Shown here: piece after piece, positions 5,826 to 6,013 of the stretch
Layout: the number at the start of each line of letters is the position of its first letter
Position numbering within the stretch: the stretch's first letter is position 1
Origin: Thermococcus barophilus MP
GTDB lineage: Archaea; Methanobacteriota_B; Thermococci; Thermococcales; Thermococcaceae
Reading direction: 5' to 3'
Assembly: GCF_000151105.2 (NCBI RefSeq)
Contig: NC_014804.1
Location: forward strand, 1,724,567-1,788,566
Length of the DNA stretch: 64,000 nucleotides
Program-made: the position numbers and the translations under genes
Notes under the pieces: model-generated
Database searches by the model: none
What the model was told of the DNA's origin: nothing
What the model saw: the letters and a program-made list of their open reading frames with translations, nothing else

Positions 5826-5865
5826 TGTTACCAAAACTTAAAAAGTCCCTAGAGGTTAAAACTCT

Positions 5866-5927
5866 TATGCAATGATGAGTGATGGGCGAACCGAGGGATG
5901 AGGATGGAAAGGTGATCGCTGAGCATA
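5866..5927 (+). ncRNA. Putative archaeal C/D box sRNA (first of tandem pair)
   Basis: Box C ATGATGA (5872-5878) and box D CTGA (5919-5922) are flanked by a perfect terminal stem TATGC/GCATA (5866-5870 with 5923-5927). A degenerate D' CCGA (5891-5894) lies exactly 12 bases after box C, and a C'-like GGATGA (5896-5901) follows. A TTAAAAAG element near 5838 could be its TATA box. Such RNAs bind L7Ae, Nop5 and fibrillarin and guide 2'-O-methylation. The D' guide is GTGATGGGCGAA; I could not assign a target. The internal boxes are weaker than in the next sRNA. Confidence 0.65.
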
Positions 5928-5941
5928 GGTTTTTATACTTC
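5928..5941 (+). promoter_or_regulatory. TATA-type promoter of second C/D sRNA
   Basis: The AT-rich element GTTTTTATACTT at 5929-5940 sits about 25 bases before box C of the next sRNA, the normal archaeal spacing from TATA box to transcript start. This suggests separate transcription of the two RNAs, though processing from one precursor is possible. Confidence 0.45.
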
Positions 5942-5959
5942 CCTTTAAATCTCTTTTTG

Positions 5960-6013
5960 GGATGATGAGTTCAGCCTTGCCTGATGTGTGATGATGGAGT
6001 GACGGACTGACCG
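5960..6013 (+). ncRNA. Archaeal C/D box sRNA with predicted 16S rRNA targets
   Basis: All four boxes are canonical and evenly spaced: C ATGATGA (5962-5968), 12-base guide, D' CTGA (5981-5984), C' TGATGA (5989-5994), 12-base guide, D CTGA (6007-6010). The D' guide GTTCAGCCTTGC is complementary over 11 bases to the archaeal 16S segment GCAAGGCTGAA. By the box+5 rule it would methylate the G equivalent to E. coli 902. The D guide TGGAGTGACGGA is complementary over 11 bases to CCGTCACTCCA near the 16S 3' end, placing the modification on the equivalent of U1406. rRNA matches and numbering are from memory, so target calls are inference; the sRNA call itself is strong. Confidence 0.88.

Follow-up and report, generated by a model that had tools for sequence, protein, structure and literature searches.

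Positions 5958 to 6012 (forward strand) of the window, the whole 64,000-nucleotide stretch of Thermococcus barophilus MP DNA analyzed here, hold the gene for sR60, a C/D box sRNA known from the Thermococcales. From its sequence, this RNA is predicted to use two guides to direct 2′-O-methylation of 16S rRNA at the equivalents of Escherichia coli U1406 and G902 (probability of roughly 0.9). A preliminary description had called positions 5960 to 6013 a C/D box sRNA, and the boxes, the match to the Rfam family sR60 (RF01309), and the fit of the guides to the organism's own 16S rRNA bear this out. The two parts of the prediction differ in strength: a function at U1406 is very likely, while one at G902 is favored by a smaller measure.

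Identity and layout of the sR60 gene

The RF01309 covariance model matched positions 5958 to 6012 (+) at 74.4 bits (cmscan; E = 1.7e-16), against a gathering cut-off of 50 bits, and aligned to the locus over its full length (positions 1 to 55 of 55). Reading along the forward strand, the gene comprises box C (ATGATGA; 5962 to 5968), a D′ guide of 12 bases (GTTCAGCCTTGC; 5969 to 5980), box D′ (CTGA; 5981 to 5984), a TGT spacer (5985 to 5987), box C′ (GTGATGA; 5988 to 5994), a D guide of 12 bases (TGGAGTGACGGA; 5995 to 6006), and box D (CTGA; 6007 to 6010). All four boxes are exact with respect to the C/D consensus sequences RTGATGA and CTGA. A strict box descriptor matched only at this place in the 64 kb, both strands included, and produced no match in 60 dinucleotide-Markov windows. 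Self-folding of the sR60 RNA showed no advantage over shuffled sequences; weak self-folding is expected of C/D sRNAs. Because Rfam already holds RF01309, sR60 is not new: it is a catalogued member of an existing family and belongs to a well-known kind of RNA. A full-text literature search found no paper under the name sR60.

The genome carries genes for fibrillarin, Nop5, and L7Ae, those for fibrillarin and Nop5 adjoining each other. In the mechanism that we propose, sR60 would be transcribed, and L7Ae, Nop5, and fibrillarin would assemble on its C/D and C′/D′ motifs. With the D guide placed on 16S positions 1361 to 1371, fibrillarin would then methylate the 2′-OH of U1364 (E. coli U1406), and pairing of the D′ guide with the strand of the h27 tetraloop would direct methylation to G858 (E. 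coli G902). As a class, C/D box sRNAs are expressed in Thermococcus kodakarensis (PMC4247193, PMC9014305).

Pairing of the guides with 16S rRNA

We tested the guides against the organism's own 16S gene (G000:C1:812425-813924), after which the 23S gene comes next, and called methylated positions by the N+5 rule. The D guide forms 11 contiguous Watson-Crick pairs with 16S positions 1361 to 1371 (−21.9 kcal/mol for the duplex), placing N+5 at U1364; the D′ guide likewise forms 11 contiguous Watson-Crick pairs, with positions 854 to 864 (−19.2 kcal/mol), placing N+5 at G858. By alignment to E. coli rrsH, these positions correspond to U1406 and G902, the two equivalents named in the preliminary description. 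The twelfth base is unpaired in both guides, A6006 facing C1402 in the D duplex and G5969 facing an A in the D′ duplex. The locus thus combines guides of about 12 nt lying directly before boxes D and D′, 11 pairs per guide with the organism's own rRNA where a C/D box sRNA calls for at least 10, and targets placed at N+5.

The other best sites for these guides in 16S and 23S rRNA were clearly weaker. Shuffled guides attained an 11-pair run in only 2 of 600 and 1 of 600 trials, and the two matches together are therefore far beyond chance. Nothing was found in favor of a chance box-like sequence without function, which the Rfam match, the conservation described below, the two 11-bp rRNA matches, and the expectation of zero descriptor matches make negligibly probable. 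A genome-wide search for a second U1406 guide found none, and the U1406 guide is present as a single copy.

Conservation of sR60 within and beyond the family

We sampled 61 genomes of the window's family, and sR60 scored above the Rfam cut-off in 60; the exception is a draft that is 75% complete. Across a wider set from the phylum, every match above the cut-off fell within this family, and none was found in 14 named controls; the distribution is thus restricted to Thermococcales-like genomes, as is characteristic of RF01309. Among the 59 copies extracted, 58 share the D guide core GGAGTGACGG, which contrasts with the variability of the C′ box, spacer, and flanks. Both target sites are letter-for-letter identical in all forward-oriented 16S loci.

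Conservation of the D′ guide is divided along its length. Its TTCAGCCT portion, which pairs with a conserved target, is invariant among the extracted copies, and its last three bases vary. Guides of the TTGC type form 11 pairs (including one G-U pair in the TTGT form), those of the TTAC/TTAT type form 9 contiguous pairs, and those of the TAGG/TAAG type, found in one genus, form 8. The preliminary description had termed the boxes and the 12-base guide spacings ideal; for the D′ guide, this is accurate in T. barophilus, with its exact boxes and 11 pairs for each guide, and does not extend across the family. Since the D′ guide is full in T. barophilus but not family-wide, the assignment of G902 is less secure than that of U1406.

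This pattern raises the possibility that only the D guide directs methylation, at U1406, and that the D′ guide acts mainly as a folding clamp, or chaperone, for h27, with G902 methylation lost or partial in some genera. In some genera the part of the D′ guide nearest box D′ has degenerated and pairs less well (TTCAGCCTAGG, TTCAGCCTTAC), Pyrococcus being one example of a degraded D′ guide, while the distal TTCAGCCT is invariant. Dennis et al. have proposed that dual guides serve as chaperones (PMC4644070). However, the D′ duplex in T. barophilus is perfect across 11 bp, N+5 included, and the N+5 pair is preserved in all D′ guide variants. We consider a clamp a tentative alternative, and methylation guided at both sites remains our preferred reading.

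Weak sR60 matches in the class's other families proved to be a different C/D sRNA (loci L100 to L107), whose D guide, AGATGGGCGGT, fits C1402 of 16S rRNA and not U1406; the core of its D′ guide is TCGACAGCGT. The combination of the U1406 guide and C′ box, searched for with up to two mismatches, was absent from 25 further genomes, comprising the class's other families and the four family members without a strong match. Because the sRNA of the other families fits C1402 and the U1406 guide was not found there, C1402 guiding appears to be the wider trait and U1406 guiding, as far as the search pattern could reveal, appears to be confined to this one family.

A tandem neighbor, sR1

A second C/D box sRNA gene, sR1 (RF01152), which formed no part of the earlier finding, lies upstream of sR60 on the same strand (5868 to 5924, +; cmscan, 50.8 bits against a gathering cut-off of 45), with 33 bases between the two. 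Its D′ guide (GTGATGGGCGAA; 5879 to 5890, +), followed by box D′ (CCGA), forms nine Watson-Crick pairs and one G-U pair with 16S positions 1358 to 1367, giving N+5 at C1360 (E. coli C1402). The sR1 D guide (GAAAGGTGATCG; 5907 to 5918, +) forms nine Watson-Crick pairs at the 3′ end of 16S rRNA, giving N+5 at C1493 (E. coli C1533); this target adjoins the anti-Shine-Dalgarno sequence.

The pair is flanked by a polysaccharide flippase-type gene (PF01943; 4578 to 5834, −) and a cation efflux gene (PF01545/PF16916; 6134 to 6994, +). An AT-rich, TATA-like stretch occurs about 25 bases ahead of each sRNA gene, in CTTAAAAAG (5830 to 5868) for sR1 and in TTTTTATAC (5925 to 5958) for sR60. The stretch before sR60 (TTTTTATACT; 5930 to 5939, +) is a possible promoter of its own, and the upstream sequences suggest that sR1 and sR60 may have separate promoters.

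Of the 59 sR60 copies examined, 41 have sR1 upstream at a distance of no more than about 50 bases. In the remaining copies it is found elsewhere in the genome, about 0.8 to 2 kb away in three and about 20 kb away in several of one genus (g6). The footprint of the sR1 D′ guide (E. coli 1400 to 1409) and that of the sR60 D guide (1403 to 1413) share seven bases, from which we infer that the two particles could not bind together and would have to act in turn. We can only speculate that the two genes make up a conserved tandem that times assembly of the decoding center, with Cm1402 and Um1406 installed successively while the sR60 D′ guide holds h27 and the sR1 D guide holds the 3′ end of 16S rRNA.

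Published methylation data for relatives

Cryo-EM of the Pyrococcus abyssi 30S subunit at 3.2 Å, combined with LC-HRMS, identified no more than two ribose methylations, Am373 and Cm1376, and the resulting list has none at U1380 or at the G902 equivalent (PMC7005279). By an offset of 12, counted from m3U1467, m6A1469, and m62A1487/1488 against Pyrococcus-like 16S genes, Cm1376 corresponds to E. coli C1402, which is the sR1 site, and U1380 corresponds to U1406. A review table likewise matches a Cm of P. abyssi to E. coli Cm1402, yeast Cm1639, and human Cm1703; the U1406 equivalent is missing from this cross-species table, which covers only sites shared with plants (PMC11542601). Among seven other archaea, predictions in helix 44 are sparse, and the nearest site named on the same strand is E. 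coli A1408 (Dennis et al., PMC4644070).

One might conclude from these data that the D guide interacts with rRNA without methylation at U1406, through pairing only or with substoichiometric modification, as no Um was modeled at P. abyssi U1380 whereas Cm was modeled at the sR1 site (PMC7005279). Given that P. abyssi has 59 C/D guide RNAs (PMC3124441) and only two ribose methylations were modeled, we take the missing entry as weak counterevidence; two ribose methylations in a 3.2-Å map very probably undercount those of the group. Furthermore, the D guide is near-invariant and its register is ideal. We therefore regard an interaction without methylation as improbable and retain U1406 methylation as the expected outcome, both sR60 methylations being predictions from sequence.

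Meaning and comparison with known systems

Altogether, these results lend good support to a predicted ribose methylation, specific to this lineage, at U1406, beside C1402, the universally methylated cytidine of the decoding site, in hyperthermophilic archaea, and they name two adjacent genes as the putative makers of the U1406 and C1402 methylations. The overall picture of archaeal rRNA modification is unchanged; the part that deserves specialist attention is the tandem pair with its overlapping decoding-site targets.

Compared with the RF01309 consensus, sR60 of T. barophilus shares the boxes, the D guide, and the TTCAGCCT core of the D′ guide, but its D′ guide ends in TTGC where the consensus has UAaG, with 11 rather than 8 contiguous pairs with 16S rRNA. 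sR1 (RF01152) resembles sR60 as a C/D box sRNA with a target on the same 16S strand, at C1402, but differs in its guides, its D guide fitting the 16S 3′ end at C1533. Similarly, eukaryotic C/D snoRNAs (yeast 18S Cm1639, human Cm1703) and the bacterial enzymes RsmI and RsmH also 2′-O-methylate this strand of the decoding site. These systems act at C1402, however, whereas the D guide of sR60 points to U1406.
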